Shown in pieces: positions 13,433-57,262 of a stretch of 64,000 bases of DNA. Under the pieces are notes generated by a model that worked only from the letters and a program-made list of their open reading frames with translations, had not been told where the DNA came from and did not search any database. Source of the DNA: Sanderia malayensis (lineage: Eukaryota; Cnidaria; Scyphozoa; Semaeostomeae; Pelagiidae); contig RQOL01000107.1 of the NCBI GenBank assembly GCA_013076295.1, forward strand, positions 1-64,000, read 5' to 3'. A program made the translations under genes and the position numbers. Position 1 is the stretch's first letter. Each line of letters begins with the position of its first letter.

Positions 13433-15965
13433 TCAATAATGTTTTAGGTCAAGAAATAAAGTCATGTTGACATTCCGATTGTCGACATTTTGCAACCAAT
13501 AATCTTTACTGCCAAACATTGAAGTAATCGTCGAATGAAATTTCCGAAAGGCATATTGATTTTTAGTAAGGGTGTTATTTACATCAGGATACTCGAAAAG
13601 CTGATCATGAGTGATTTTTTTCAAAAATTCTAGAAAAGATGCCAAGAACAGAGATTGGTCTATCATTATTTTCATCATCTCTCGCTCTTGATTTATAAAT
13701 CGGTGCTACCCTCGCTAATTTCCACAGTTCAAGAATATACCATTATCTAGAGAGACTTTCAAGATCATTGCTAAAGGTAAAGCGATTTGCTCAGATGCAT
13801 CTTTGACAAGCGTGGTAGGTACTTTATCCGGTCCACTTGCCTTGCCATTTTAGCTGCTGTAGTGAGAGCAAAACGCCATCCAAGGTTATTTCTTTGAACG
13901 AAAATCTAGTTTGGATGTTTTGTTTTATGTGTTTGATTGGATCATCACCTACTTTACTTTCTACTTTTGAGCAATTTCAGGTACAACCGAAACGAAGTGA
14001 CCATTGAAGGCATTTGCTATTTCCCGATTCTCAGTTCATATCTTATTGTTTGCCTTTAGACTGTTAATCGATTTCATATCCTTCGTCTTACCCAAGACTT
14101 TATTTATGGTCTTGCACATTTTCTCAGGTTTACCTTCGTTTTCGTCTATCACCCATTGTAATAGCCTTCTATTGCTTTGTTTACTTCATTAGTAGTTTCA
14201 TTACGCAACAGTTTGTACTCAGGCCATAGCTCGGGCTTCCCTACAGCTTCCCATTTTGCTCGGTTTCTCCTTCTTATCAAATCTCTTAGTGACGGAGATA
14301 ACCATGGAGCATGTTCATCACGTACCCGAAATTTTTTAAGCGGTGCATAAATTTCCAAATTTGTCTCAGATATTTCTTGAAATAATTGAACCATTTCACT
14401 TGGTTCATGATATAAGGGGAAGAGAATTTGCTCCCAGTTAATTTTTTGGAGATCATATTGAAACGCGAGTTTGTTATATTTTTTAAGGTTCCTGGTCTCC
14501 ACATATTTTGGGTTCTTCCATTGTAGCTTTTTTGTTCCTATTTTTCTTATCCCATAAACCAAGTAATGATCTACCATTCCTGTTTCTAGTACATCACGTT
14601 TGATAATTAAGTTAGGTTTGTTACAAGAGAAATGGTCTATCAAGCTTTTCGTAGTTCTGGTGTTATTTTCGCCAGCTTGTACAATTGCTACTCTTGTATA
14701 ATCCTTGACTAATTGAGTCAGTTGAAGTTCTCTGTGGAACTTCTGAGGCTTTTGTATTTGGGTGTTTGGTGTTGTTTTTAAAGTCACAGTTTGCATCACC
14801 GATAAGGATTATTTCCTTTTCTTCTTCATCCAGAATGGATAAAAGGTTTCTTAGGTTTTCAAAGCTTCTTGTATCATTCCCAGATTTTGGGGGTCGATAC
14901 CAGCATGCTAGGAAAAATGGTTTGGAATGTTTTGCATAATTTCCAAGCATAAAAGTTCTAAATCGTCGCATTTGTACTTCATTACCGGACTAGGTACGGT
15001 GTCTTTAATGTAAATAGCTACCCCAGCACCGTTTATATTACGGTCGTTTCTGATAATGTGGTAGCCAGGAATCGAGGCCTCAGAATCGCTTATCCTTTCA
15101 TCTAGCCTCGTTTCACTGAGACCTATGATGTCAATTTCACGATTGTGAAGCAGCAGATTCAGTTCATGTCCTCTTTTTCTTACGAACACGATGTTTAAAA
15201 AAGCTATTTTAAGACCATTTCTCTTCCTTACAAGCGGCTTATGCTTTGATTTTTCCTTGTCGCCTTGGTCAATTTTTGGCTGCGACTTCCTTAGCAGCAT
15301 TTAATAAAATTAATTAAAATACCTGCAAATTTACGCCCTCCGCCCTGGTTGATGTGTAGACCGTCGTGAGCTAAATTTGAAAAAGAATGTTATTATTATC
15401 ATTAATGTCAAATCCATTGATCATCAGTTCTTCTTCGAGCATCTTGTCCAGTTTTGTGGCTTTCGCATTCAGCTCTTTGTCTTGTCGTCTGAATATGGAG
15501 GAGAAAGCTATCTTTGATGTGGGGTTCTTTTCTTGGATGGATTTCAATGTGTTCGTGATTTCTGACGCAAGTTTTTCTGGCGCTGATGATCTCAAGTCGT
15601 TAGATGCAGCGTGTACAATTATGACGTCACTATCGGTTATACAAGCCTTGTTCCCGCTTGCTTGATTTTCATTCCTGATTGTGTTCGTATTTCAACTTGA
15701 TGGTGCTTGTCATTGTTAATTTTTTCCTCATTAATTCTCAGGAGTTGCGAGTCTCCAACAATTGTCACCTATGTTTTTCTTGTGGGGTGCCTGGTTGTTG
15801 CCATGGCAGTCTGTGATGGATTGTTGTTCGCTTTTTTCTTCTTAGAATGTTTTGCTTTTCTGCAGCGATGGAGTTATGTGTTTTACCTTTGCTTTGCTTG
15901 TTGTTCATGCTTTGTTAATCAACTCTGTGCGGATTTCAATGATGACCAACAATGCGACTAATGAA
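13433..15965 (-). pseudogene. CR1-like LINE relic (unit 2)
   Basis: Same truncated LINE as in unit 1: esterase part (15,371-15,660), endonuclease (14,663-15,300), linker (14,149-14,640), RT fingers (13,433-13,678). Small indels merge two frames that are separate in unit 1, so a 216-codon frame is open from 14,799 to 14,149. No RT catalytic motif remains. Confidence 0.85.
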
Positions 15966-39332: not shown

Positions 39333-40072
39333 TTTTTTGCAACATGGAATTTTGCTAACGTGATTCTTTGATTCGTTTCGATTGTTTCCTCGAATTCCCC
39401 CATCATTTCAAGAGGCGTTTTGGATCCATATGCATAAACTCGCACTTTGGACTGTTTGAGTTTGATTGGTGTCCCTGTCTTCCTGTTGATTTCGGTGAAT
39501 GAGTTCTCGTCCATTATGTTGACACTAGCTCCTGTGTCCACGAGAAATAGGACTTTTTGACCTTTGATTATGAGGGGAGATTCCAGTTTCTTTGTCTTTT
39601 CCATTTTCTTTTCCATGCAATAAACGTACTCGTCAGAGCTTTCGTCTGAGTTTGTGTTTGATTCTTTAGTTGCAACTGTGTGAACCTTTTGCTCTTGTTT
39701 CTTGGCTCGTTGTTTACAGCATCGCGTGAAGTGATTTTTTCGGTTGCAGTAACTGCATGTTTTCCCCTGAGCTGGGCACGGGCCATGTTGATGTGGGAAA
39801 TCAAATCCACAGTTATAACAGGTTTTCCTGGTTTGTTTTTTGTGTGTTTCCCCTCTTGGTTGAAAATTTGATTTTCTAGGTTTCGTGTACTTGGGTGCAG
39901 CAGATCTGATGTGCATTGCTTGCATGTCTGAGGTTGTGGTTGGAAAGGGGTTTTCCATTTCGTTGGCTTGTTGTTTGCTAATTTCGTTTGACTTTCCTTT
40001 CAGCAAGATGTCTTTCAGCGTGACGTCTGTTGTTTTCAAGGCGTATTTTCGCAGCGAGGAGCTGGAGCATCC
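39290..40072 (-). pseudogene. Gypsy-2 gag C-terminus, zinc knuckle and protease
   Basis: Begins just after the LINE insertion (LRKYALKTTDVTLKDI). Zinc knuckle CYNCGFDFPHQHGPCP followed by CSYCNRKNHFTRCC. Aspartic protease LFLVDTGASVNIMDE. It ends with one frameshift before the RT frame. Confidence 0.9.
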
Positions 40073-40077
40073 TTGAA

Positions 40078-40966
40078 CCCACTATTGTTCTTGATTTATA
40101 TAAATGACATCTACAAATCTTCTCAAGTTCTCCAATTCCGACTATTTGCAGACGACACCAGTATTTTATTGGCTAACAAAAATCTTGATATTTTAGAACA
40201 GATCACCAATTCTGAGTTACAAAAGGTATCTGTGTGGTTATTGGCTAATAAGCTATCGCTGAATGTATCTAAATCAAATTTCTTAATCATAAGTCCTCAT
40301 AAAACTGACAAAAATATAAAATTAAAGATTAATAACAGAGACCTAAAACAAGAAAATTATACCAAGTATCTTGGAGTAATAATTGATAACAGCCTGAATT
40401 GGAAATTGCATGTAAAGCAAATAAATTTAAAACTATCGAAAGGAATTGGAGTGTTATACAAATTAAGATATCTTGTACCGAAACATTCACTCAAGACTCT
40501 ATACTCATCATTTGTTCAATCACACGTACTATATGGAATATTAAGTTGGGGGTGTGCTAATAAAACTACCTTGGCAACTCTAAAACTTAACTTGCGAAAA
40601 GCAGTTAGAGTAATTGACTTTGCAGACTACACTGCACATACTGAACCTATCTTCAAACGCCTGAAAATTTTTAACTTCCAAGAACTTTACATGCTTGAGT
40701 CAGCAAAAATGATGTTTCAAATTAACTCAAATATTTTTTCTCTCGAAGGCGAATTTGTAAAAACAAAAAATGTACACAAATATAACACAAGGCAATCTTC
40801 TTCTGAGGGTTTTTCTCTCCCATACATTTCTACAAACTTTAAAAAAAACTTTCTCACTTTTGACGGTATTAAATTTTGGAACTCCCTACCTATAGAGTTC
40901 AAAACAATGTATAATAAACATCACTTTGTGAAGCAGATGAAATACTATCTTATGAACAAAGTTTGA
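40078..40966 (+). CDS. LINE reverse transcriptase C-terminal half
   Basis: Open from the truncation point (PLLFLIYINDI) to TGA. RT motif FADDTSILL contains the catalytic Asp pair. Thumb and C-terminal region follow: ANKLSLNVSKSNFLIISP, YTKYLGVIIDNSLNWKLHV, LYSSFVQSHVLYGILSWG, YNTRQSSSEGFSLP, and WNSLPIEFKT near the end. About 296 residues. Endonuclease and RT fingers are lost to 5' truncation, which is normal for target-primed insertion. It cannot move by itself. Confidence 0.9.
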
Positions 40967-41364
40967 AAACCTGTATGCTTGATTACTTTCTGATTAATTT
41001 ATAATTGCATTTAGCCTTATTCATTAATTTTACTTTATCTATAATTCTTTTTTAATTCTACCATATTTTACTTTATTGTTATTATATCTTGTTGTTGCTA
41101 TTCAAACCTAAAAAAAAAATTTTTTCCTTTTTTATCATAAAAAGCGTCAAACTGGACACATGGCTCGATAGCTTGCCCAAAGTTTTTTCCATGTGTCCAT
41201 CAGCCTAAGATTTCTTAATTACATATTTATACTTAACCATGTTTTTCTATTAAAAAAAGAATGTATTCCTGTACTTAATCTTTTATTATATCAGTATGAT
41301 GTAATTAATCAATTTTATGCTGAAAAAACATTTTGAGTTTGAGTTTTTGAGTTTGAGTTTGAGT
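40078..41364 (+). mobile_element. 5'-truncated LINE inserted in Gypsy-2 gag
   Basis: Flanked by TTGAA (40,073-40,077 and 41,365-41,369); joining at one copy restores Gypsy-2 gag. The 5' end lies inside RT. The 3' UTR is about 400 bp and ends with a short TTTGAG-type repeat instead of poly(A). No damage to the ORF is visible, so it is young. Confidence 0.9.
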
Positions 41365-41790
41365 TTGAATCATTTGCTGCTTAATTTCTTGATCCAGGTT
41401 ATCTGCAGTGAACTGACACGTTTGAGCTAATTTTCGCAAGCGAGTGTGATAAGTATCAAGAGTTTCCTGGGGAAGTTGCTTCGCCTGTCGAAAGCGAAAA
41501 ATCTCGAAGTCAGTGTTCTGCTTGGGAGCGAAATACCCCGTGAGCGCTGTGACTGCTCTATCAAATTCGTCATCTCTGCCAGTGTTGGGAAGCGTGTCAA
41601 AGATTTCTTGTACCTCGAATCCTGCTTGGTACAGTAGTAATGCTCTCTGTTGGGTCTTGTTTGTTATGTTTGCCGCTTTGATGAATGTATGAAAGCGTTT
41701 GATCCAGCTATTCCAGCGAGTTCCTAGGTTACTTGGGTCACTGTGAGGATCGAAGCTTGGAAGCGGTGTCAAATCTAGTTTTGCAGCCAT
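41365..41790 (-). pseudogene. Gypsy-2 gag N-terminus
   Basis: Starts MAAKLDLTPLPSFDPH at 41,790, 44 nt inside the primer site. Gag core: WNSWIKRFHTFI, RALLLYQAG, YFAPKQN, IFRFRQAKQLPQETLDTYHT. It is cut at codons for Met-Ile-Gln by the LINE insertion. Similar to the gag of Gypsy-1 (RFRETKQEQQETLDQYHT). Confidence 0.9.
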
Positions 41791-41833
41791 TTTCCGGGTT
41801 TCCTTCGTTATCTAGAAGTTTGTTTCACTTTTT

Positions 41834-41844
41834 CCTCGTCGCCA
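41834..41844 (-). other. Gypsy-2 primer binding site (tRNA-Ser type)
   Basis: The minus strand reads TGGCGACGAGG, the same 11 nt as in Gypsy-1, three bases inside the 5' LTR. Confidence 0.75.
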
Positions 41845-41847
41845 ATT

Positions 41848-41974
41848 TGTTGTGTTTAGAGCATATCAGAGTCAGACAGAGACGCGTGTGAGTTTCATGA
41901 ACATAACCAATTGAATGAATGACTTTTACAAGTCAGTAGATAAAACAATAAAAGTCCATAGGGAGTCCATAGCA
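41848..41974 (-). repeat. Gypsy-2 5' LTR
   Basis: 127 bp, identical to 33,706-33,832; followed inwards by AAT and the primer binding site. Confidence 0.94.
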
Positions 41975-41979
41975 CCAAC

Positions 41980-42493
41980 TTTGCAAAGGTCCTCATGCCA
42001 CGTCGTCCCACTGCACAATACCCGCCAGTGAGAAGTCAGCCGCAGTTATCCGACAAAGCTTATGCCTTAATTGTTTGAACACGGACATCGTGTTTCTAAT
42101 TGTAACGCAAGAGGGCGCTGCGCAAAATGCAAAGGCAAGCACCATACTAGCATACATGGCATCCGTATTCATTCCACCAATACGACCTTTCAACGAAACG
42201 CGCAGACGCAAAATCAGCCCCCGTCTCGTACTAATACTCACGCTGCAATAATTACGAATGAATCTTCAACCGCTCCGTCCGCCCCGGAAAACGTTTCCAC
42301 CGCCAATTCAACATCGCAGCCCATCACGACAAATTGCGCTCCTTTGTTGAATATCGATATTAATGATTGCTTAGATGATAATCCTCCTTATCCGTCTTTG
42401 CATATCAACGATAAATCGTCTTACGTCAATCGTACAGCTAAACTCAAGCCTCCTCAGAGCACTAACGCCCCGTCTGAAGCTGTTAATCAATAA
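41980..42493 (+). pseudogene. BEL-A gag C-terminus with zinc knuckles
   Basis: Resumes immediately after Gypsy-2. It carries LCKGPHATSSHC and then, after a 1-nt deletion near 42,077, HGHRVSNCNARGRCAKCKGKHH, a CCHC-type knuckle pair. The tail is Ser/Thr/Pro-rich, up to TAA at 42,493. This continuation confirms that Gypsy-2 is an insertion into BEL-A. Confidence 0.85.
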
Positions 42494-42539
42494 ATCAATC
42501 TTAAAACTGCCAAAGCCGTTGCCATTGCAAACGATAAGA

Positions 42540-43493
42540 TGTGAAACGCAAACATATTTTTCGACGAAGGCTCTCAACGCAGTTACGTACGCGCAGAATT
42601 TGCCAATCAGTTGGGATTAAACCCCGAGTCTTATGAGCTTTTATCCGTTTCTGGTTTTGGTGGGACAATTATGAAACGAAACTATGGGGTATCTACGCTC
42701 GGGCTAGAAACTTTGAATTGATCCGAGTTCTCTTTTCTGATGAAATCGTAAAGCCTATAAATCAGAGTGGTTGCTACAATCTGAAAAATGACTCACGTTT
42801 CAAAAAACTCGAATTTGCCAACGATTTCAGCGATGAACACTTTCAAGTTGATATTCTAATCGGTGCTGATGCCGCGTATCGTTTTCTCGGAGCAATTGAC
42901 GATCAATTTCAAGAACCTTTCAATCAGAAATCTAAATTTGGACTTGTTATCTCCGGGCCGTTCCCAAAGCCCATTCCTGAAATGGGAAATCCAGCCCTTT
43001 CAGAGGAAATTACTTCGATTCGTACAAACGCCGCAAAATCTGTCAATGAAGTCGATGTTAATAGTGATAAGTCGTTTAATTCCCCTCCTTCATTTGAAAA
43101 TCTAGTTGACAATGCCGAGCTCTCTGTTCAATTCGAAAAAATTCTGCAACATCAATCTCTAAATTACGAGAACGACAAAAAGAAAGCTAACGCATTTATT
43201 CATGATTACCAACAACGCGTTGAATTTCGATATGGTCAATATTTCGCTTCTTTGCCCTGGAAAGATGAACACCCTCCGTTGCCATCCAATCTCAGCCTTT
43301 GTAAAAACCGTCTTACTCAAGTGACCACACGTTTAAATAAGCTAGGCCTTATGGACCAATACTGCAAAGTAATGTACAAACATTTAGGTAAAGGGTACAT
43401 TGAAGAACTTTCGAATTTAAACCAGCCCTGGCCTGAAGAGGGATGTCACTATTTGCCGCACTTCTTTGTGCTGAAAGATTCCGAACCTGCCTA
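42540..43493 (+). pseudogene. BEL-A protease (DUF1758) and RT N-terminus
   Basis: The protease box FFDEGSQRSYVRAEF lies near 42,555. After a stop near 42,720 the frame goes on with VDILIGADAAYRFLG and VISGPFP, then the Pao pre-RT region (GQYFASLPWK, LCKNRL, GYIEELSN) and HYLPHFFVLKDSE. It terminates at 43,493 before any RT catalytic motif. The 10-bp tandem junction repeat follows directly. Confidence 0.85.
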
Positions 43494-43494
43494 A

Positions 43495-43565
43495 TGGCTC
43501 GTGTTCTTTCGTGTTCACTCGTGTTCATTCGTGTTCACTTGTGCTCACTCGTGTTCTGACTCGTG
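43495..43565. repeat. 10-bp tandem repeat at the BEL-A/BEL-B junction
   Basis: About six imperfect copies of TCGTGTTCAC (variants TTCTT, TTCAT, GCTCAC) lie exactly between the truncated pol genes of two head-on BEL elements. Neither element's coding sequence contains such a repeat, so it was added or expanded at the breakpoint. Confidence 0.85.
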
Positions 43566-44749
43566 TGGTCTATTAGACTGGATCTTACTACACCATGATG
43601 ACATAGATAATGCAATTCATTATTTCCTGTTTTTCGATTTGCCGGTGGCACCTTTTCAATAATGCCCTTAGCAATTTGGTCTTGAAAATAACCATCATAT
43701 TCCTGAAGCAATTCTGGTGTTTTTCTCAAACGTGAATGCAACGAGCTTAAACGACTTTTACTTAACTCATACTGACTATCAAATTGCTTATCTTCATATT
43801 GAGATTTCCAAGGAAGACTCACCTCGTATCTTGAATCGTCCTTGTTGAATTGAATCTGCATTCCTGGTAACTGATTTTCACCTTTTGGCTGCCCTACGGC
43901 ATTCGGTATTTCGTCTTGTGTAAGCCCGCAGGCTTCTTGATTCCAAGACTTGCTCAGTGATTCCACGATTTCTTGATTTTCATCTACTACTTCACTGCTG
44001 GAGGGAATAATATCTAAAACTATATGAGAACTGACATTAAAGCAAAACCACCTTTCATTCTCGTATGAAACTGGGCCTGACAAAAGCCATCCCAGCTTAC
44101 TGGACATGGCAGTAGATCCAGTACTGCCTCTAATGGATTCACCTGTAACAAAATCAAAGTAATAGTTTGCCCCAATTAGTAGGTTAATATTCTTATCTTT
44201 ACGGTTGTAGCTATCTACAAGTTTCAGGCTTGTCAAGCGCGCGCATTCGCTTACGCATACGCTGTTCGTTATCGGAGAACATATCGTTGGAAAACTTAAA
44301 GCCTTAATCGGAATTACTCCTTCATCTATTTCAATATTGGCTGTGACTAACTCACTCTCATTCTTAATTTTCTTATCTGTAGCAAAGGTATTTACATTAA
44401 CAGTCTCTTTTTTCTCACCTTTCAACCCAAGTTTTTTCTTTAGTTCTTCTGTAATGTAGCTTCGTTGACTTCCATCATCGAATAAGATATTTATCTTTGC
44501 CTTCTTTGTCTTGTCGTTTCCATATGCTATTGCTTGGGCTGTTTGCAACAGCACTCCTTCTCTTCCCTTAGATGCCATCGTCGATGTGCTTTTTTCTTCT
44601 TTGGTGTTTACTTCTTCGTGTTTCTCTCCTTCACATATGGCCGTGTTATGTCTTCTCCCACAATCTCTGCATTTGATTGTGCATTGACATTTTTTTGCCG
44701 TATGACCAATCTTCATGCATAAGAAGCAGCGTCTTGTGTTCTTCAACAA
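43566..44749 (-). pseudogene. BEL-B zinc knuckle, protease and RT N-terminus
   Basis: Zinc knuckles: RRCFLCMKIGHTAKKCQC and KCRDCGRRHNTAIC. DUF1758-type protease: ILFDDGSQRSYITEELKKKL. Then NLLIGANYYFDFVTG, SKLGWLLSGPV and the pre-RT region ending LHYLCHHGVVRSS. The break is only a few residues from the equivalent point in BEL-A. The frame is otherwise open; a 1-nt shift near 44,790 separates it from gag. Confidence 0.88.
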
Positions 44750-45632
44750 TCCCTTTCGTTTTAAGACATCTTGTACTACGGTACAATTCGAAGCATAGTG
44801 CGCATTTTTGCAGAAGAAGCACCGGATCTGTCTCTTGTTGTACCGCTCTTGTTGTACCGCTTATTTGCTGTTGTGAAGTTCTGTCTGGTCTTCTATCGTT
44901 CATCTTTACCTTTGTACTCACTTCTCTCGCTTCAATCTCTTTTCTGACGATCTCTAATATTTCTTCTATGTCCCACACATCTTCTGTTGTCTTCCTCGCA
45001 ACTTCTATAGCAATTTCGCTCGGTAGTCTGGTCATTACTACTGGAACTAAAAGGCTTCCATACTCCTTTGATGTCACTCCTAGCGATTTCAATCCTCTAA
45101 TGTGTATGTTCAAATTATCATATACTTCCCGAGTTGACATCATCGTTGTCTTATGGCCAAAATTAAGCAATGCTTGCATGTGGGAGCTAATGATTTTCTG
45201 TGTTTTCCCAAATCGTGCCTTCAAAATTTCTTTCATTTCATCATAGTTACCTTCCGTCAAATCCATGCCTTCGATTGCTTTATAAGCCTGTCCTTCCAAC
45301 GCGTTGACTAGGTATCTCATCTTCTGGATTTTCGGTAGATCTTCGTTCTCGTCAATTGTGCACGTGAAGGACTGCCAGAATGCTTGAAACTTCATCACAT
45401 CGCCGTTAAACTTTCCCAGACTAAACTTCGGCAGTCTTATTCCCGCTTGTATTCGGCTGTTGCTTGACGTATGACTGTGGTTGAGATGATTTGGCGTTGT
45501 ACTTCTTCTTTCTTCGTGTACGTCCTGATTCGTCAATCTGATTTTCAGTGCATCAATCCTTGTGACGATCTCTGTAATATTTGTATTAATTTCATCAGAT
45601 TCTTCAACTTCTCTTTCGATGTCTTCGATATC
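44646..45632 (-). pseudogene. BEL-B gag, main part
   Basis: The frame is open from the target duplication at 45,632, through IEREVEESDE and ITEIVTRIDALK, to the DUF1759 core (IRLPKFSLGKFNGDVMKFQAF, MRYLVNALEGQAYKAI, EIAIEVARKTTEDVW). It ends with a frameshift close to the first knuckle. No Met lies at its left edge, because the real N-terminus is on the far side of the palindrome. Confidence 0.88.
45627..45632. other. Target-site duplication, left (GATATC)
   Basis: Matches 52,753-52,758. The target is itself a palindrome, and one copy restores the BEL-B gag frame. Confidence 0.92.
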
Positions 45633-45719
45633 AGTAGGAGATGAAGTGCGTGTCCGAGCCCACCTGGCGCACGCATGCGCATTAGAATTTTTATTTTATT
45701 TTAGTGTTAAGATCACGCA

Positions 45720-46145
45720 TGCGCGTTCGAATGCGGCGTTCGAATGTACGCGGAAAATCTCTGTCATGAGAAATCAGAAACTTCTAGAATCTGGTAAAGT
45801 TAGTTTGAAGTTGCAAAACATCGCCAAAGCTGATAAAAACCCATAAAAAGCTTAATAACTAAAAAACGGTGTTGTTTATAAAAAATATTTTTACAGCAAT
45901 AAAAAGAAAATCTCTTGATTATATTGAATGACTTATTTCATATTTTCCATGCATTTATAAGATGATAAGAAATTGTTAAATAAATCGCAAGAAAACACAA
46001 AAATATTGAGGAACTGGCAAATTCACGTTCTCGGCTCGAGATTGAATTCAAAAAACCAATCAGAAACTTTCGAATGCGGCGTTCGAATGTACGCGTCAAA
46101 TCTCTGTCATGAGAAATGGGAAATCAGAAACTTCTAGAACTTTTC
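45720..46145. repeat. Subterminal direct repeats in left arm
   Basis: A block of about 70 bp (TTCGAATGCGGCGTTCGAAT, GTACGCG, CTCTGTCATGAGAAATC, AGAAACTTCTAGAA) occurs at about 45,725-45,788 and again at about 46,070-46,137; mirrored in the right arm (52,250-52,660). Repeated subterminal motifs are typical transposase-binding sites; that role is inferred. Confidence 0.75.
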
Positions 46146-46394
46146 CGAGGGGAAATCCCCTGACGTCACATTGAAAAATTTTTCTATTAACAGAAAATCT
46201 CTGCAATCTGATTGGCTGATAGCCAAGATTTCGAGTCACTTTAAAACAAAACTTGAAATGGACATTATTCAAAACAAAATGTGCAAGCTGTTGAAGAAAC
46301 TATTTTAACACGTTTCAAGAAGAAAGACGCCATGAAAAAGAGGCCATTTTCTACATTAGCAAACAATAATATCTAAACCTTTTTATAAGCATTG

Positions 46395-46895
46395 TTATAT
46401 CCTACTATATGGAAATGCTGGAGTACTATTAAATGTTTGTTCATACACTGCAGCATCCTCAGAATCACTAGCTTCCTCTTCTTCGTCATTCTTTGCTTGA
46501 CGTATGATGAGATATTTTCTTTTCTCAATAGCATAATCTAAGGCCTCTTGCATATCCATATCATCTTCCCTTTGGGCTTTTTGCATCGTTGCTATAACTG
46601 CAGTTACAACAGCATCATTTTCAAAACTTCTATTATATAAAAATCTACGTCTGAAAACTTGCAATATGTTTTCATCTTCATCCACTTCCTTACGCATAGA
46701 AGGCCATACATTCCCTAAAGGAAGATCCTCATCAGTGTTGACAGTTTCATCATTATCATGATCACTTTCAACTTCTATCTCATCATCTGAGTCAGACTCT
46801 TCACTGCTCTCCTCGTGCATCTCTTCTTCATGTCGTGCAACATTACTTTTATACTTGGAAGAAAATTCACATTGATCACATTTATACTGACTCGT
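46395..46895 (-). pseudogene. C2H2 zinc-finger acidic protein, left-arm copy (start lost)
   Basis: Same frame as the right-arm gene, but the initiator codon is ACG at 46,895-46,893 (a Thr instead of Met). The next Met lies inside the zinc finger (EEEMH), after both Cys ligands and the first His, so translation there would lose the finger. The rest is open to the same TAG-less end at 46,395. Probably non-coding unless an upstream exon or non-AUG start is used. Confidence 0.7.
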
Positions 46896-47039
46896 GGCTA
46901 GCTGGTTACTTATAATTACCAACTAACTCTTAAATCCCTGAATTCTAGAGTCTCAACTCGCTTGATTTTATAGATAAGTTCCTCCATTCAATATGATACG
47001 GGAGAGGGACTGAACGATATTTCCGAATAAACAAAACTT

Positions 47040-49130
47040 AATCCTTGGATAATGCTAACTAATCCTGTTTAATGACTACTCCATTCTAGCTAATCATTCC
47101 TAGTCATTACCTTCTCAATACTTGATCCTCAATACATCCTTGATTATCATTCCTAATCATTACCTGATCATTAGTTGATCCTTCACTGACCCTTACTAAT
47201 CCTTACCAATCATACCTTTTCATTACCTGATCATTAGTAGATCCTTAACTGATCCTTGCTAGTCCTTATCAATCTTTCCTAATCATCATCTGATCATCAG
47301 TAGATCCTTAACTGATCCTTGATAATCCTTACAGTCATTCATAATCATTACTGATCATCAGTTGATCTTTAACTAATCCTCACTAATCCTAACTAATCAT
47401 TCCTAATCATTACTTCTCATTACTTGATCCTTAACTGATCCTCACTAATCCTAACTAATCATTCCTAATCATTACCTTATCATTACTTGATCCTTAACTG
47501 ATCCTTACTAATCCTAACTAATCATTCCTAATCATTACCTTATCATTACTTGATCCTTAACTGATCCTTTCTAATCCTAACTAATCATTCCTAATCATTA
47601 CCTTATCATTACTTGATCCTTAACTGATCCTTTCTAATCCTAACTAATCATTCCTAATCATTACCTTATCATTACTTGATCCTTAAATGATCCTTTCTAA
47701 TCCTAACTAATCATTCCTAATCATTACCTTATCATTACTTGATCCTTAACTGATCCTTTCTAATCCTAACTAATCATTCCTAATCATTACCTTATCATTA
47801 CTTGATCCTTAACTGATCCTTACTAATCCTAACTAATCATTCCTAATCATTACCTTATCATTACTTGATCCTTAACTGATCCTTTCTAATCCTAACTAAT
47901 CATTCCTAATCATTACCTTATCATTACTTGATCCTTAACTGATCCTTACTAATCCTAACTAATCATTCCTAATCATTACCTTATCATTACTTGATCCTTA
48001 ACTGATCCTTTCTAATCCTAACTAATCATTCCTAATCATTACCTTACCATTACTTGATCCTTAAATGATCCTTTCTAATCCTAACTAATCATTCCTAATC
48101 ATTACCTTATCATTACTTGATCCTTAACTGATCCTTTCTAATCCTAACTAATCATTCCTAATCATTACCTTATCATTACTTGATCCTTAACTGATCCTTA
48201 CTAATCCTAACTAATCATTCCTAATCAATACCTTATCATTACTTGATCCTTAACTGATCCTTATTAATCAGAACTATTCATTACTAATCATTACCTTATC
48301 ATTACTTGATCCTTAACTGATCCTTATTAATCAGAACTATTCATTACTAATCATTACCTTATCATTACTTGATCCTTAACTGATCCTTGCCAATCCTAAC
48401 CAATCATACTTAATCATTAGCAGATCATCAGTTGATCCTCAACTGATCCTTACGAATCCTTACTAATCATTCTTAATTATTATCAGGTCATCAGTTGATC
48501 CTTAGCTGATCCTCACCAATCCTTACCAATCATACATAATCATTACCTGATCATCAGTAGATCTTTTACTGATCCTTGATAATCCTAGCCAATCATACCT
48601 AATCATTAGCTGATCACGAGTTCATCCTTAACTGATCCTCAGTGATCCTTATAGTCATTCATAGTCATTACTGGTCATCAGTTGATCCTTAGCTGATCCT
48701 CACCAATCCTTACCAATCATACATAATCATTACCTGATCATCAGTTGATCCTTAGCTGATCCTCATTAATGCTTACCAATCATACTTAATCATTAGCAGA
48801 TCATCAGTTGGTCCTTAACTGATCCTTGCTAGTCCTTATCAATTTTTCCTAATCATCATCTGATCATCTGTTGATCCTTACTAGTCCTTACCACTCATTC
48901 CTAATCACTACCTGATCCTTAGTTGTTCCTTAACTAATCCTTACGAATCCTTACTAATCATTCTTAATCATTAACTGATCATTAGTTGTTCCTTAACAGA
49001 TCCTTCTAATCCTAACTATTCATTACTAATCATAGCTAGTCATTACATAATCATTAGTTGATCTTTAACTGATCCTGGCTTTATCCATTCAACATTTATC
49101 CTTACTAATCTGACTAATAATTTCTTATCA
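47040..49130. repeat. 63-bp higher-order tandem repeats, left arm
   Basis: Built from 10-12-bp subunits TAATCCTAAC, TAATCATTCC, TAATCATTAC, CTTATCATTAC, TTGATCCTTAAC, TGATCCTT(A/T)C. Between about 47,400 and 48,400 these form regular 63-bp units (about 15); toward the loop and toward the gene the order becomes irregular. Rich in GATC. Confidence 0.9.
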
Positions 49131-49176
49131 TAACCCAATCCTTATTAATCCTTGCCTAGATTTTATTAATCTTCAG

Positions 49177-49208
49177 CAGTAGTGTGGAGGGTGTTCAGTC
49201 GGGATCAA
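49177..49208. other. Palindrome loop (32 nt)
   Basis: Unpaired centre between CTTCAG and CTGAAG, containing AGTGTGGAGGGTGTTCAG. The only non-symmetric DNA of the element. Confidence 0.9.
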
Positions 49209-49254
49209 CTGAAGATTAATAAAATCTAGGCAAGGATTAATAAGGAGTGGGTTA

Positions 49255-51345
49255 TGATAAGAAATTATTAGTCAGATTAGTAAGGATAAATGTTGAATGG
49301 ATAAAGCCAGGATCAGTTAAAGATCAACTAATGATTATGTAATGACTAGCTATGATTAGTAATGAATAGTTAGGATTAGAAGGATCTGTTAAGGAACAAC
49401 TAATGATCAGTTAATGATTAAGAATGATTAGTAAGGATTCGTAAGGATTAGTTAAGGAACAACTAAGGATCAGGTAGTGATTAGGAATGAGTGGTAAGGA
49501 CTAGTAAGGATCAACAGATGATCAGATGATGATTAGGAAAAATTGATAAGGACTAGCAAGGATCAGTTAAGGACCAACTGATGATCTGCTAATGATTAAG
49601 TATGATTGGTAAGGATTAATGAGGATCAGCTAAGGATCAACTGATGATCAGGTAATGATTATGTATGATTGGTAAGGATTGGTGAGGATCAGCTAAGGAT
49701 CAACTGATGACCAGTAATGACTATGAATGACTATAAGGATCACTGAGGATCAGTTAAGGATGAACTCGTGATCAGCTAATGATTAGGTATGATTGGCTAG
49801 GATTATCAAGGATCAGTAAAAGATCTACTGATGATCAGGTAATGATTATGTATGATTGGTAAGGATTGGTGAGGATCAGCTAAGGATCAACTGATGACCT
49901 GATAATAATTAAGAATGATTAGTAAGGATTCGTAAGGATCAGTTGAGGATCAACTGATGATCTGCTAATGATTAAGTATGATTGGTTAGGATTGGCAAGG
50001 ATCAGTTAAGGATCAAGTAATGATGAGGTAATGATTAGTAATGAATAGTTCTGATTAATAAGGATCAGTTAAGGATCAAGTAATGATAAGGTAATGATTA
50101 GTAATGAATAGTTCTGATTAATAAGGATCAGTTAAGGATCAAGTAATGATAAGGTATGATTAGGAATGATTAGTTAGGATTAGTAAGGATCAGTTAAGGA
50201 TCAAGTAATGATAAGGTAATGATTAGGAATGATTAGTTAGGATTAGAAAGGATCAGTTAAGGATCAAGTAATGATAAGGTAATGATTAGGAATGATTAGT
50301 TAGGATTAGAAAGGATCATTTAAGGATCAAGTAATGGTAAGGTAATGATTAGGAATGATTAGTTAGGATTAGAAAGGATCAGTTAAGGATCAAGTAATGA
50401 TAAGGTAATGATTAGGAATGATTAGTTAGGATTAGTAAGGATCAGTTAAGGATCAAGTAATGATAAGGTAATGATTAGGAATGATTAGTTAGGATTAGAA
50501 AGGATCAGTTAAGGATCAAGTAATGATAAGGTAATGATTAGGAATGATTAGTTAGGATTAGTAAGGATCAGTTAAGGATCAAGTAATGATAAGGTAATGA
50601 TTAGGAATGATTAGTTAGGATTAGAAAGGATCAGTTAAGGATCAAGTAATGATAAGGTAATGATTAGGAATGATTAGTTAGGATTAGAAAGGATCATTTA
50701 AGGATCAAGTAATGATAAGGTAATGATTAGGAATGATTAGTTAGGATTAGAAAGGATCAGTTAAGGATCAAGTAATGATAAGGTAATGATTAGGAATGAT
50801 TAGTTAGGATTAGAAAGGATCAGTTAAGGATCAAGTAATGATAAGGTAATGATTAGGAATGATTAGTTAGGATTAGTAAGGATCAGTTAAGGATCAAGTA
50901 ATGATAAGGTAATGATTAGGAATGATTAGTTAGGATTAGTGAGGATCAGTTAAGGATCAAGTAATGAGAAGTTAATGATTAGGAATGATTAGTTAGGATT
51001 AGTGAGGATTAGTTAAAGATCAACTGATGATCAGTAATGATTATGAATGACTGTAAGGATTATCAAGGATCAGTTAAGGATCTACTGATGATCAGATGAT
51101 GATTAGGAAAGATTGATAAGGACTAGCAAGGATCAGTTAAGGATCTACTAATGATCAGGTAATGAAAAGGTATGATTGGTAAGGATTAGTAAGGGTCAGT
51201 GAAGGATCAACTAATGATCAGGTAATGATTAGGAATGATAATCAAGGATGTATTGAGGATCAAGTATTGAGAAGGTAATGACTAGGAATGATTAGCTAGA
51301 ATGGAGTAGTCATTAAACAGGATTAGTTAGCATTATCCAAGGATT
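49255..51345. repeat. 63-bp higher-order tandem repeats, right arm
   Basis: Mirror image of the left-arm array (AAGGATCAGTTAAGGATCAA, GTAATGATAAGGTAATGATT, AGGAATGATTAGTTAGGATT). Position-specific variants of single units are mostly shared with the left arm, so the arms were copied from each other after the array had formed. Confidence 0.9.
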
Positions 51346-51489
51346 AAGTTTTGTTTATTCGGAAATATCGTTCAGTCCCTCTCCCGTATCATATTGAATG
51401 GAGGAACTTATCTATAAAATCAAGCGAGTTGAGACTCTAGAATTCAGGGATTTAAGAGTTAGTTGGTAATTATAAGTAACCAGCTAGCC

Positions 51490-51990
51490 ATGAGTCAGTA
51501 TAAATGTGATCAATGTGAATTTTCTTCCAAGTATAAAAGTAATGTTGCACGACATGAAGAAGAGATGCACGAGGAGAGCAGTGAAGAGTCTGACTCAGAT
51601 GATGAGATAGAAGTTGAAAGTGATCATGATAATGATGAAACTGTCAACACTGATGAGGATCTTCCTTTAGGGAATGTATGGCCTTCTATGCGTAAGGAAG
51701 TGGATGAAGATGAAAACATATTGCAAGTTTTCAGACGTAGATTTTTATATAATAGAAGTTTTGAAAATGATGCTGTTGTAACTGCAGTTATAGCAACGAT
51801 GCAAAAAGCCCAAAGGGAAGATGATATGGATATGCAAGAGGCCTTAGATTATGCTATTGAGAAAAGAAAATATCTCATCATACGTCAAGCAAAGAATGAC
51901 GAAGAAGAGGAAGCTAGTGATTCTGAGGATGCTGCAGTGTATGAACAAACATTTAATAGTACTCCAGCATTTCCATATAGTAGGATATAA
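51490..51990 (+). CDS. C2H2 zinc-finger acidic protein, right-arm copy
   Basis: 166 residues from the first ATG (MSQYKCDQCEFSS), preceded by an in-frame stop, to TAA. One C2H2 finger: C-x2-C-x12-H-x4-H (residues about 6-28). Then a long Glu/Asp/Ser region (ESDSDDEIEVESDHDNDE), a middle region rich in charged helices (VFRRRFLYNRSFENDAVV, MQEALDYAIEKRKYLI) and a Tyr/Pro C-terminus (NSTPAFPYSRI). The only intact gene of the palindromic element. The single finger could recognise the element ends or target. No relation to a known transposase or integrase seen. The gene faces the element terminus, where the tandem repeats could act as upstream region. Confidence 0.75.
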   Translation: MSQYKCDQCEFSSKYKSNVARHEEEMHEESSEESDSDDEIEVESDHDNDETVNTDEDLPLGNVWPSMRKEVDEDENILQVFRRRFLYNRSFENDAVVTAVIATMQKAQREDDMDMQEALDYAIEKRKYLIIRQAKNDEEEEASDSEDAAVYEQTFNSTPAFPYSRI

Positions 51991-52752
51991 CAATGCTTAT
52001 AAAAAGGTTTAGATATTATTGTTTGCTAATGTAGAAAATGGCCTCTTTTTCATGGCGTCTTTCTTCTTGAAACGTGTTAAAATAGTTTCTTCAACAGCTT
52101 GCACATTTTGTTTTGAATAATGTCCATTTCAAGTTTTGTTTTAAAGTGACTCGAAATCTTGGCTATCAGCCAATCAGATTGCAGAGATTTTCTGTTAATA
52201 GAAAAATTTTTCAATGTGACGTCAGGGGATTTCCCCTCGGAAAAGTTCTAGAAGTTTCTGATTTCCCATTTCTCATGACAGAGATTTGACGCGTACATTC
52301 GAACGCCGCATTCGAAAGTTTCTGATTGGTTCTTTGAATTCAATCTCGAGCCGAGAACGTGAATTTGCCAGTTCCTCAATATTTTTGTGTTTTCTTGCGA
52401 TTTATTTAACAATTTCTTATCATCTTATAAATGCATGGAAAATATGAAATAAGTCATTCAATATAATCAAGAGATTTTCTTTTTATTGCTGTAAAAATAT
52501 TTTTTATAAACAACACCGTTTTTTAGTTATTAAGCTTTTTATGGGTTTTTATCAGCTTTGGCGATGTTTTGCAACTTCAAACTAACTTTACCAGATTCTA
52601 GAAGTTTCTGATTTCTCATGACAGAGATTTTCCGCGTATATTCGAACGCCGCATTCGAACGCGCATGCGTGATCTTAACACTAAAATAAAATAAAAATTC
52701 TAATGCGCATGCGTGCGCCAGGTGGGCTCGGACACGCACTTCATCTCCTACT

Positions 52753-52758
52753 GATATC
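52753..52758. other. Target-site duplication, right (GATATC)
   Basis: Second copy of the 6-bp duplication. Confidence 0.92.
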
Positions 52759-52863
52759 GCAAAGTTCCATAATTTTTTCGTTTAGCTGGTGGAAGTATTT
52801 CTTCTTTTCCCTCAAGGTATTTATCAATGAATCAGCGTTTGTGATCACTGTATCCCGCGGCAT
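52753..52863 (-). pseudogene. BEL-B gag, N-terminal fragment beyond the palindrome
   Basis: The minus strand from 52,863 encodes MPRDTVITNADS and a charged helix-like stretch up to the GATATC copy at 52,753-52,758, in the frame that continues at 45,632 once one GATATC is removed. This fragment is the decisive proof that the palindrome is an insertion in gag. Upstream of the Met the frame stays open for about 12 codons to a stop. Confidence 0.8.
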
Positions 52864-53129
52864 ATTGTCCGATTCTCTTAAAGTGCTTATGCAACGAATT
52901 TTTACATAGTGTTTTTATTTCAAAAATCTATAGATTTCAATGCACTGATTAACGTGGCGCAAATAAAATTTGCAAATTATGTATACTTTTTTCGCTATTA
53001 ACCTTCAAAGTAGGCAATTTTGACCTTTTTCGTGCGAAAACTGAACATCACTCTGATGTCATCAAACGTCGCGTCTGCAACGTCAAGCAATCGTATTCAA
53101 TACTCCCTCCGTGCAGAGATTCATGGCAC
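52864..53129. other. Upstream flank of BEL-B, nothing recognised
   Basis: AT-rich; no LTR boundary, primer site or coding similarity could be supported. Confidence 0.4.
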
Positions 53130-53369
53130 CTCCATGCCAAACGAGCAAATTATGTGGCAAAATTATGGAAATCGAGCTTCTGCAGCACAGTTGAAATCAA
53201 GAATGTAGAAGATCACGGCTGGACAGAGAACGGAGAAATCGTTTGGGTAAAATAGGCATTTCCAGAAGACGTTGAGGAACTCTTACTTTCCGTCGAAAAT
53301 GAAAATTGTGACGATGACAGGTTCTATTTAATAGAAGATGCAGATCCCGACAGTGATAGCAACGATTAG
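53130..53369 (+). pseudogene. TE-associated protein tail (relic)
   Basis: One frame with a single stop (TAG 53,253-53,255) reads HAKRANYVAKLWKSSF, then DHGWTENGEIVWV, AFPEDVEELLLSVENE and an acidic end (DADPDSDSND) with TAG at 53,367-53,369. The order (R)-N-Y-(x)-A-x-(L/I)-W-(K/R), a Gly-Trp turn, and a conserved F-P-E-x-(V/I)-E-x-L-L motif is one I associate with C-termini of repeated, transposon-linked proteins in cnidarian genomes. No better name is justified. Confidence 0.45.
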
Positions 53370-53614
53370 GTGAGCAGAATACTTTGTTTTCTTGATTAAA
53401 ATATTATAACATCATATAAATATTATGTTTATAGTTTTATGTAAATGTAAAAAAGTTACCCACCACGACCCCCAGAAACCCCTACCCCACCCCCTATTCT
53501 CTATTTTGCAGCAGGCATGGCCAGTTGACAAACAGACTAACATTTATTGCCATTTTGCTTGTTTTCATAAGTGAAGTCTCTCTAAAAAACCGTTTTTACG
53601 AAAATCACGATCTG

Positions 53615-53639
53615 ATGACGTCATTTTTTATGACGTCAT
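53615..53639. repeat. Paired ATGACGTCAT palindromes
   Basis: Two copies of ATGACGTCAT (CRE-like) separated by 5 nt. The surrounding 53,370-54,788 has no coding signal that I can support. A C-rich stretch lies near 53,470-53,500. Confidence 0.7.
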
Positions 53640-54788
53640 AAAATTTAAACAGCTAATAACATATGAACAACAAATGATATCGAGATCAAATAACGTTCAG
53701 TGTGATAAGATTCTCATCTGCTACTAGAAAAATTAAAATAACTAGTCATGGAAAGCTGCATCGGGATGAAATAAACAACTTTTATTTTATAAGGGCTCAG
53801 TACTGAAATCCTGAAGTAACAATTGCCCATAAATGGTAAACGCAGCAGCCCCCCCTTGATCACCAAAACTTTTTTAGGGGTTCTTGTGATGGGCTTTCAG
53901 AAAAAAGAGGTCTCGTTTGGTTCGGCTTTGGGTTACTCCTACCGTACTCAGGGCCTGGTCATTTCCTTACCGTCTTCGCATTCCTCAGCACTGCAATCCC
54001 TGCTGTCATGAACTACTATCCAACTAAGAATGTTTAATTTATGGGACCTTCTATTCAATTCTGATCACCAAAAATTGCACAAATACCCACGAATACACAC
54101 AACGAGATACGACAAAGCGCAAAAACTATCTATTATACTGAATGTAGTCATACGCCCGCCCCCACTGAGCACATTGAAAAGCCACTACATGGGCAATTTG
54201 TATTTCCTCCCCACAGCTGCAAGCTCTTCAAAAACCCTTCAAATTCCAACCCCAATATGCGCCGACCTGTTTCTCATCATCAAAGTAGAAAAATCAAATA
54301 TCAAGCTCATCGTGTGCAAGAAAATCGATGTCAAATTTGTTTCTTCAGTACGGGAAAAAAACGGGGTTCCCACTATGATGTCGTAGTGGACTCGACCCAT
54401 TCCTAAAAATGAGACACGAAAGTGTGAACGCAATCGCTCGTAACTCAACAACTACTCATCAGAGCAAAAAATATAAACGGTATCAGAATCAGCGCATTCG
54501 ATTCTATACTTTTATAGGTGTTAAATGCAATTTAAGAACAATTAATGTGCGATAGAAATTGCCACTGCGAAATAATGTGTATGTCCATCAACATGATCCC
54601 ACAAGGGTGTGGTTAAACAAACCTAACAAACATATATTGACGTCGGTAATCTCTTGGCAATTTATTCAAGGCATGTTCGTGCCAAGTTCAGATGCAACAA
54701 TCATTCTAAGGCCTAGCGCACAGAACAAGGATTGATTTTGCTATCCACATTTGTCTTTGTGTTTGTTACACTGGACTTAACGCTGGTG

Positions 54789-55121
54789 CCATAGGCGCCG
54801 ACTTTTATTCTTCCCAGGGGGGGCTCAAAATTAAAAAAAAAACTGGAAAAATAAAAAGGTAGAAAAACTTCCTGTCACTTTTAAATAACGTACAATATAC
54901 ACATGTATTATGTATAATAAAACACAAAACATTGCAGTAAAACAGATATAACATCATGGTCTACAGTATCATCAGTTCAATTCTTTAATTAGTGTTTCTT
55001 CAATAAAATAAACGTGTTTTTTCAGATCACAAACAAAATTCCCAGGGGGGGCTGAGCCCCCCCATAGAAATTTCCATAGGGGGCTTGAGCCCCCAAGCCC
55101 CCACGTAGTCGGCGCCTATGG
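54789..55121. mobile_element. MITE with GC-rich terminal repeats
   Basis: 333 bp. Ends CCATAGGCGCCGACT / AGTCGGCGCCTATGG. Flanking 6-bp duplication CTGGTG (54,783-54,788; 55,122-55,127). Inside are two hairpin-forming stretches (GGGGGGGCTGAGCCCCCCC and GGGGGCTTGAGCCCCC) and an AT-rich centre. No coding capacity; mobilised in trans if at all. Confidence 0.85.
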
Positions 55122-55127
55122 CTGGTG

Positions 55128-56792
55128 CACTTGTACTGAAGAAAGATCAGATAAGCTATGGAATTAGTTGGTTTGGCAGGATTGCGCATAAGGCAATACA
55201 AGGGAGAAAGGAGAATCGATTTGGTGAGATTGTTTCTTATCACATTTCTTTCGATATTGATTTACACCAAACTTTCGTTATTTTATCAGTCTTCAGACAG
55301 ACTTCATTGTGTATTGAGGGGTACCTTGTTACTACAGGGCTGTTCCGCATTATATCTCTTCCAGTATTCATTTTACACCAAACTTTCGTTATTGTTCAAC
55401 AATCCTCAAACTGAGTTCAAATAAATATGTCCTTGGTATTGCAGGCCTGAGAGCCACAGTCTTTTCGATTAATTCGGCCAAGATTTTGCACCAGCTACAC
55501 AGTGAAGCCGTGTGTCCCCCTTCAAGTTGAGCTTACGCAATCGTGTCCCCAGAGGCTGATGCTTCGACTATTTTAAATTTGTTTTGTTATTTAACTTCAT
55601 TTAACTGCATGTCTGTCTCTTGCCCTTCTCTGTTGTCATTTGGTTTTCGTAACATATATTGTTCGTTTAGCAAACTACCCTACTCAGGACCCCGGCACCG
55701 GTTAGCAACACTAGCGAATCTGGTGGATATGAGAATCTTTAGAGCTTCCCTCCTCACCATTTATTGATAGAAAGCGACAGGCTCGCTACAAAAATTACCC
55801 CTTCGAAGTAAATGGCTACAACCTCTTGACAAAGTTGAATTGATTGATATAATGTAAGGAAGGTTGGAGGAATGCTGCTATTTAACCATCCATAAGTGCT
55901 ATGAAATCTGAATCTTGGAGCACGAGCACGGTCAAGAAGGTCACTTTCCCCAAATCTAGCTTGTCAAATCAGAATTCATCATGTGGGGCAAAGGGTGGAA
56001 TGCACGCCATGCTTTCTGTTTGAGCAATCCTGCCCACGCTGTGCCTAACGGCTTTCATTGGATAAATAATTGTTTTTGATGCCTTCTGTCTCGAATATTC
56101 TACACCCGGGGATTGCCCGCCACCGCGAAGTGTTATCATCTGCGGGGTGGCTGTCACTTTTGAGCAAAGTTTATTGGCTGTTTTAATTAACAAAGAAACT
56201 TATCTTTGCAATATCAACAACAACAGTTCTTGGACTTTCGGACTTTTCATGCTACAATGGCACTAAATGTTTACCTAACATCCCGGATGCGGGTTCATTG
56301 TCATGGAATATCGCATTTGTCTTAGTTCCTCTTATCTATATTCTCACGCATTTTGTTAGTTCATATATTCGGCACCCGCACGAGTGGTAAATATCTTGAG
56401 CTGCTTTTTCTGGACCCGCAAATCGTTCGGCTCATTGTCATATATGTCAAAGTAGCATGCGCACAAGACATGCCTCCGCTTTCATAAGGACGTAATGAGC
56501 GTCCTGTCCTTGACCATCCGGTTGGGTCAAGGCGTTTTAGTAATCTGCACCCAGGGTGGCCAATATAGATTTTCAAACCCAATGCTAGCAATCCGGCTTT
56601 TGTGAATTTGTTTGATTTCGATTATATCTCTCTGGTGGTCGCAACGTGATCTACTCCTAAATTTTACATGAACATAACTCACAATCACATTGTGCCATTA
56701 CCTATATGCGTCAAGCAACATGCGTCGTCGTGGCAGCTTTTATACCAACAGGCCTAATCATGGCTCTTTTGATACCAACAGGCTGTGTTCAT
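55128..56792. other. No gene recognised
   Basis: Short open frames without domains. A phrase ACACCAAACTTTCGTTATT occurs twice (about 55,263 and 55,377). Nothing else supported. Confidence 0.5.
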
Positions 56793-57262
56793 GGCCTGCA
56801 TGTGATATAATAAATGATTCCCACAGAAGTCAGTCAAGCGCCGTGGTGGCCAGTCCCCACGTGACTGGTACTATCTGGGGTTTCTGCGTTTTTGCCAACC
56901 ATATTCTGTATAACATGTAATGGTTATGTATTTGCATTGCCACTAGGCTTTGTTTTGGCTGTATTCTTGGCCTGCATGTGATATAATAAATGATTCCCAC
57001 AGAAGTCAGTCAAGCGCCGTGGTGGCCAGTCCCCACGTGACTGGTACTATCTGGGGTTTCTGCGTTTTTGCCAACCATATTCTGTATAACATATAATGGT
57101 TATGTATTTGCATTGCCACTAGGCTTTGTTTTGGCTGTATTCTTGGCCTGCATGTGATATAATAAATGATTCCCACAGAAGTCAGTCAAGCGCCGTGGTG
57201 GCCAGTCCCCACGTGACTCGTACTATCTGGGGGTCTGCGTTTTGCCAACCATATTCTGTCTC
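56793..57262. repeat. 176-bp tandem repeat, nearly three copies
   Basis: GGCCTGCATGTGATATAATA starts at 56,793, 56,969 and 57,145, giving a period of 176 bp. Each unit contains the E-box-like CCCCACGTGACT. The third copy is incomplete and more diverged. Short open frames in it only reflect the repeat. Confidence 0.9.

Follow-up and report, generated by a model that had tools for sequence, protein, structure and literature searches.

A palindromic foldback element with Polinton-type ends in the genome of the scyphozoan Sanderia malayensis

We analyzed a stretch of 64,000 nucleotides from Sanderia malayensis (assembly GCA_013076295.1, contig RQOL01000107.1, positions 1 to 64,000 of the forward strand; hereafter "the window"), in which positions 45633-52752 are occupied by a palindromic mobile element. 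As a preliminary description of the sequence had reported, the element has a left arm of 3,544 bp (45633..49176, + strand) and a right arm of equal length that mirrors it (49209..52752, − strand). Between them is an asymmetric spacer of 32 nt (49177..49208, +), which has the short inverted repeat CTTCAG...CTGAAG on either side. The ends are of the AG...CT type (5'-AGTAGGAG), and a 6-bp target-site duplication, GATATC, flanks the element on the left (45627..45632) and on the right (52753..52758). Global alignment of the two arms shows that they are 6 substitutions and two 1-bp indels apart. From outside to inside, each arm is composed of a variable tip of ~70 bp (on the left 45633..45703, +, 5'-AGTAGGAGATGAAG, differing from copy to copy), a segment reaching ~position 490 that is shared with the terminal repeats of Polintons in the same genome (45704..46116, +, with its mirror by symmetry at 52269..52681, −), a zinc-finger frame pointing to the outer end of the arm, and a minisatellite with a 63-bp unit that spans ~1.9 kb (~31 units at 47146..49076, +, and ~30 units at 49352..51239, −). 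Long, internally repetitive inverted arms therefore make up most of the element, which is the organization of a foldback element. No Rfam match was found in window positions 44000-54500.

A BEL element carries the palindrome within its gag region, and the gag piece beside the insertion (44646..45632, −, from the open reading frame (ORF) list) matches Pfam DUF1759. The preliminary description had taken the resumption of the gag frame across the insertion as proof that a defined unit had integrated. The frame is indeed continuous over the joined flanks with either one or two copies of GATATC; however, because a 6-bp duplication preserves the frame in both cases, the reading frame alone is no proof of a unit. 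The proof comes instead from an empty site. When each flank was searched in its own genome, positions 14543-14775 of contig C424 were found to join positions 14776-14947 directly, with a single GATATC, and C424:9000-18900 is collinear with window positions 39858-45632 (99.8%) and 52753-56892 (99.3%) with the insert absent. The left flank has nine other matches in the genome, eight of which exactly adjoin a match to the right flank, while the one on C275 is partial only. Whether C424 is the second allele or a duplicate of recent origin, the window insertion is recent. We conclude that the uninterrupted C424 locus proves that the palindrome was inserted as a defined unit.

The genome was searched with the terminal 204 bp, with a spacer query of 166 bases and with the zinc-finger stretch, and the results refer to the 40 best-scored of 563, 62 and 120 candidates, respectively. 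Several of the 40 terminal matches occur as inverted pairs. With the spacer query, 34 of the 40 places match all or nearly all of the query and so hold both arm edges, three hold the spacer with at least 33 bases of each arm edge, and three retain little of one arm beside the spacer; matching both strands is by itself no proof of mirroring, since the arms match each other. Twelve palindromic copies, picked for high scores of both arms and thus biased to well-preserved copies, were read to their ends (visible pairs at C453 and C479:803630 lie outside this sample). Perfect 6-bp duplications, all mutually different, flank each of the 11 copies with two readable ends, and the right end of the twelfth, C829b, was not located. 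The whole unit, with two ends and its own 6-bp duplication, was therefore read at 10 sites besides the window. The two ends of the same copy are 94.6-100% alike over the first 200 bp (11 copies), and one spacer is common to all 17 aligned copies, with lineage-specific insertions. In a subfamily comprising C660, C773, C613, C605 and C866 the spacer is ~16 nt longer than that of the window. Arms without an obvious partner were seen at C913, C609 and C155, all three with the family arm and minisatellite and two with the spacer. The C432 copy has ACCCTT on both outer sides and a tandemly duplicated interior; at C432:107600-113250 (L038, also L039) the left part of the copy repeats with host flank every 4.88 kb, a suspicious array that reflects either a post-insertion tandem duplication or a fault in the assembly.

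Polintons, also called Mavericks, carry terminal inverted repeats with 5'-AG...CT-3' ends and generate 6-bp target-site duplications. They are described as typically 15-25 kb long, with a protein-primed polymerase B, a retroviral-type (rve) integrase, a packaging ATPase and a protease (PMC6431247). Three longer elements in the genome share tips with the palindromic family, namely C714 (22.3 kb), C871 (19.2 kb) and C440 (19.3 kb), and arm positions 78-490 are common to all three at 94.9-96.4% identity. In C714 and C871 the terminal repeat measures ~475 bp, and the main arm homology stops there, so that the match in the arm amounts to this repeat and little else. Frames of C714 match polymerase B (PF03175, 65 bits), an rve integrase (PF00665) with a chromodomain (PF00385), a Pox A32-type packaging ATPase (PF04665) and a Fic protein; another encodes an adenain-like protease, which resembles S273R at E 3.2e-4 and adenain at E 0.066. 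Six of 10 C714 frames in a first set and five of eight in a second set (seven of them from C714) have no Pfam match, and the large unmatched frames might be the place of capsid genes; PDB sequence searches with a piece of the polymerase and a large unassigned frame returned nothing useful. Gene content was scanned in C714 alone, to which C871 and C440 are 95-99.8% identical across DNA pieces. A genome search with PF03175 gave seven places, none of which is C714, C871 or C440, and the figure is not used as a polymerase count. The polymerase region of C714 is interrupted by ~2.5 kb (L015 3810-6362) not present in C871 and C440, and part of the terminal-repeat sequence recurs in the Polintons ~2 kb inside one end (L017 4829-5247, L014 7716-8131). 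C714 and C871 have AG...CT ends and are flanked by duplications of 6 bp. C440 has no matching duplication and two ends of unlike type, the left one of the C616a type and the right one close to the C714 type (L021, L023), and it looks like a recombinant.

Beyond the terminal segment the two groups have little in common. Over its outermost 1,450 bp, the arm otherwise matches Polintons only in repeated pieces of the terminal segment (up to position 517) and in a single stretch of 31 bp; the 19-base core of the minisatellite is in none of the Polinton pieces examined, and the arm interior, with the zinc-finger gene and the minisatellite, was not found in Polintons as far as these were compared. 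Conversely, the ORF list and Pfam revealed no polymerase B, rve integrase, packaging ATPase or protease frame in the palindromic element, whose longest frame is the zinc-finger frame (166 amino acids from ATG), with no transposase domain. The tips, judged from sequence, look as if they had been exchanged with those of Polintons: a C815 end matches a C714 end at 97.5% over 200 bp and a C616a end matches the left end of C440 at 99.0% over 200 bp, each above any other palindromic end compared. The preliminary description had considered the palindrome to be either an extreme non-autonomous derivative of Polintons or a foldback element of a separate class. The check that it proposed supports the former, since there are copies that share the ends and 6-bp duplications as well as longer relatives with these ends, of which the scanned one carries polymerase B, integrase and packaging ATPase; a separate class is unnecessary, as the shape is that of a foldback and the ends are of Polinton type.

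The arms of a copy were compared over the outer 1,290 bp in 10 copies, excluding C807 and C829b, whose right arms are interrupted or cut. In 87 gap-free informative columns the arms of one copy agree in 847 of 870 cells, and 69 columns agree in all 10 copies; random re-pairing of right arms averaged 548 and peaked at 829, and none of 2,000 re-pairings reached 847. With arms oriented by the spacer (12 copies, including the two with poor right arms), the mean distance is 0.0630 between same-side arms and 0.0629 between opposite-side arms, with no sign of separate left and right lineages. Near the spacer, 118 mirrored column pairs from 17 copies (16 distinct) include 14 pairs with changes on both sides, amounting to 48 cells, compared with 8.5 pairs and 14.1 cells in shuffles that break the relatedness between copies; none of 500 shuffles reached the observed 14 or 48. 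When the partner column was slid by 1 to 3 columns, 0-8 both-side-changed cells remained. We conclude that the arms of one copy are made alike. The mirrored changes would reflect copying and not a selected RNA structure; copying is preferred because the two arms also share replacements of tips and of blocks.

On these grounds we consider it likely that the window palindrome is a non-autonomous foldback element with Polinton ends, which is moved and copied in trans and whose arms are homogenized by fold-back during protein-primed replication. Shared ends and equal duplication length suggest that it very probably moves with Polinton enzymes. Each arm consists of a Polinton terminal repeat followed by the zinc-finger gene and minisatellite, with two such arms opposed over a fixed 32-nt spacer. 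A Polinton integrase acting in trans would produce the 6-bp duplication, and the Polinton protein-primed polymerase, also in trans, would copy the element from either end. Any single strand could fold into one long hairpin, in which a nascent or displaced strand may change template within itself; alternatively, mismatches in the hairpin may be repaired. Either route would equalize the arms and leave the unpaired spacer unchanged, presumably at the time of replication, and a template change some distance past the spacer would allow a difference close to it to persist. The founder was probably a strand that folded at CTTCAG...CTGAAG and copied itself to the end. A single founder is probable because one spacer is common to the aligned copies.

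Several observations weigh against this model. The case for Polinton action on the palindromic element is an indirect one, built on the shared ends and the duplication length, and a non-palindromic progenitor carrying the zinc-finger gene did not turn up among the best 40 of 120 and best 40 of 62 candidates, of which few were opened. The C616a tip match gives no direction of exchange, given that C440 has unlike ends and lacks a matching duplication. A single subfamily of five copies accounts for nine of the 14 both-side-changed pairs, so there were fewer events than cells, and perhaps only a few. The arm tree joins five of 10 pairs as sisters (C859 at 93/93) and leaves the other five in poorly resolved forks, and the arms of C479b are separated by a fork with 90/85 support. 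At 39 bp from the spacer, five of 17 copies have a difference on one side that is mirrored in a sixth, so copying was incomplete there. Finally, the arms of C815 are unequal (3,144 and 3,773 bp), and those of C660 have diverged, with 36 substitutions over their outer 1,290 bp.

The strongest alternative accepts a Polinton-type foldback but has its arms equalized by ordinary gene conversion after insertion, as in other chromosomal palindromes, with no role for replication. The concerted pattern of the arms is also expected from gene conversion, and the arms of C616a are identical over 3,338 bp although the closest other arm compared is 2.0% off. However, unconverted differences persist in several copies, with 11 substitutions in C815 and 10 in C558 over the same outer 1,290 bp in addition to those of C660. 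The recent window insertion, with arms 99.8% alike, fits likeness on arrival, although this point is weak, as conversion is compatible with it too. The terminal repeats of the full Polintons, whose ends are ~19-22 kb apart, are alike as well (98.3% in C714, 97.7% in C871 and 95.7% in C440). We regard conversion without replication as unlikely, though it deserves serious consideration.

That the element belongs to a foldback class of its own, one with a dedicated transposase that had captured or converged on Polinton-like ends, seems improbable. Such a class could account for an arm that past ~position 517 of the outer 1,450 bp has only the 31-bp Polinton match and whose minisatellite core is absent from the Polinton pieces, but the common end sequence extends over hundreds of bases, well beyond a motif, and the longest internal frame is the zinc-finger frame and no transposase. 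An assembly artefact, in which chimeric long reads yielded a false inverted duplication, can be set aside as highly implausible: palindromes are difficult to assemble and C432 lies in a suspicious array, but exact 6-bp duplications border the element at all 11 readable sites, the window arms differ at some positions, and an insert-free site exists at C424.

Returning to the Polinton-type foldback presumably copied in trans, we considered what its gene may contribute. The preliminary description had assigned one zinc-finger ORF to each arm, and the frame is present in both, on the left at 46395..46895 (−; ORF list, arm alignment and Pfam) and on the right at 51490..51990 (+; ORF list, homologues and structure model). 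The right arm has kept the ATG, while in the left arm it now reads ACG, changed at position 46894 (start codons were compared in the window copy only). The predicted protein, of 166 amino acids, contains a single C2H2-type finger (PF13909, scoring 27.4 bits where the cut-off is 27) and an acidic linker. AlphaFold, with 9 sequences, gave a mean predicted local distance difference test (pLDDT) score of 64 and a low-confidence helical C-terminal part, and a PDB fold search with the model found no match at E ≤ 0.001, the best hits being single zinc fingers. Four close (76-97% identity) and five distant (33-40%) relatives, none of them named, occur in other assemblies, and none was found in viral contigs. 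Of 23 arms, 15 carry the frame without indel or stop, one has an in-frame 3-base gap and seven are broken; the frame is open in both arms in seven of 12 copies. The ratio of nonsynonymous to synonymous polymorphism (pN/pS) ranges from 0 to ~0.75 over eight pairs with few changes, which lends weak support to selection on the ORF. Any binding of the predicted protein to the minisatellite or to the terminal repeat is conjectural. More tentatively, and in our estimate with somewhat less than an even chance, the element could be a self-complementary Polinton satellite, that is, a chromosomal palindrome that replicates as a hairpin-forming linear replicon on borrowed protein-primed machinery, with both halves rebuilt from one during copying, its tips swapped with those of the helper, and a zinc-finger gene of its own whose product possibly binds the minisatellite or the helper ends.

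Elsewhere in the window, positions 4719-32418 hold a ~6.2-kb unit repeated head to tail and then inverted, with copies mostly 98-99.5% alike. Five of these copies have a frame of 209-219 amino acids, and the one that was scanned had no Pfam match.

The genome thus holds a foldback with Polinton ends in many copies, with a recent insertion, together with closely similar full Polintons. The mirrored mutations would be a natural record of copying of one arm onto the other, and the element would therefore offer a simple, helper-dependent substrate on which to test whether Polintons replicate by protein-primed strand displacement. Confirmation of this dependence would mean that Polintons have their own gene-carrying satellites. 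No palindromic or foldback Polinton was found among the literature titles and abstract openings listed, a search that did not cover subscription journals or Repbase. Expansion of Polinton inverted repeats is reported in a single clause of one paper (PMC3573991), and a palindromic miniature inverted-repeat transposable element derived from hAT is described from cod (PMC12368964).

Compared with Polintons, the palindromic element has the same AG...CT ends and 6-bp duplications, and most of its terminal 490 bp is nearly equal to that of the full Polintons of the genome; in contrast, it is 7 kb long, no Polinton genes were found in it, and its inverted repeats fill the entire element. With Polinton ends present and Polinton genes not, it is by its ends a non-autonomous derivative and not an autonomous Polinton. 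Foldbacks of the Mutator or P type have duplications of at least 7 bp, and the palindromic family has 6-bp ones in each of the 11 copies with two readable ends. With the foldbacks FB of Drosophila, Galileo and Tetris the element shares long, internally repetitive inverted arms. The first Galileo copies were described as long terminal repeats only (PMC3573991), and Tetris as non-autonomous, with tandem repeats within its arms (PMC4079207). Most foldbacks have been assigned to Mutator, Galileo, in the P superfamily, being among the few exceptions (PMC4079207, PMC3573991), and the foldback architecture is believed to have evolved separately in distinct lineages of transposons, mainly of the Mutator type (PMC4079207). 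Unlike FB, Galileo and Tetris, the window element has Polinton ends, a 6-bp duplication and an open gene in its arms. Palindromic derivatives also occur in adenovirus and in yeast linear plasmids. In Podospora, inverted repeats that flank integrated pAL2-1 invertron plasmids were attributed to racquet or panhandle replication intermediates (PMC1864894). These protein-primed linear replicons are viruses or plasmids, whereas the window element belongs to a chromosomal transposon family in which the body itself is palindromic.

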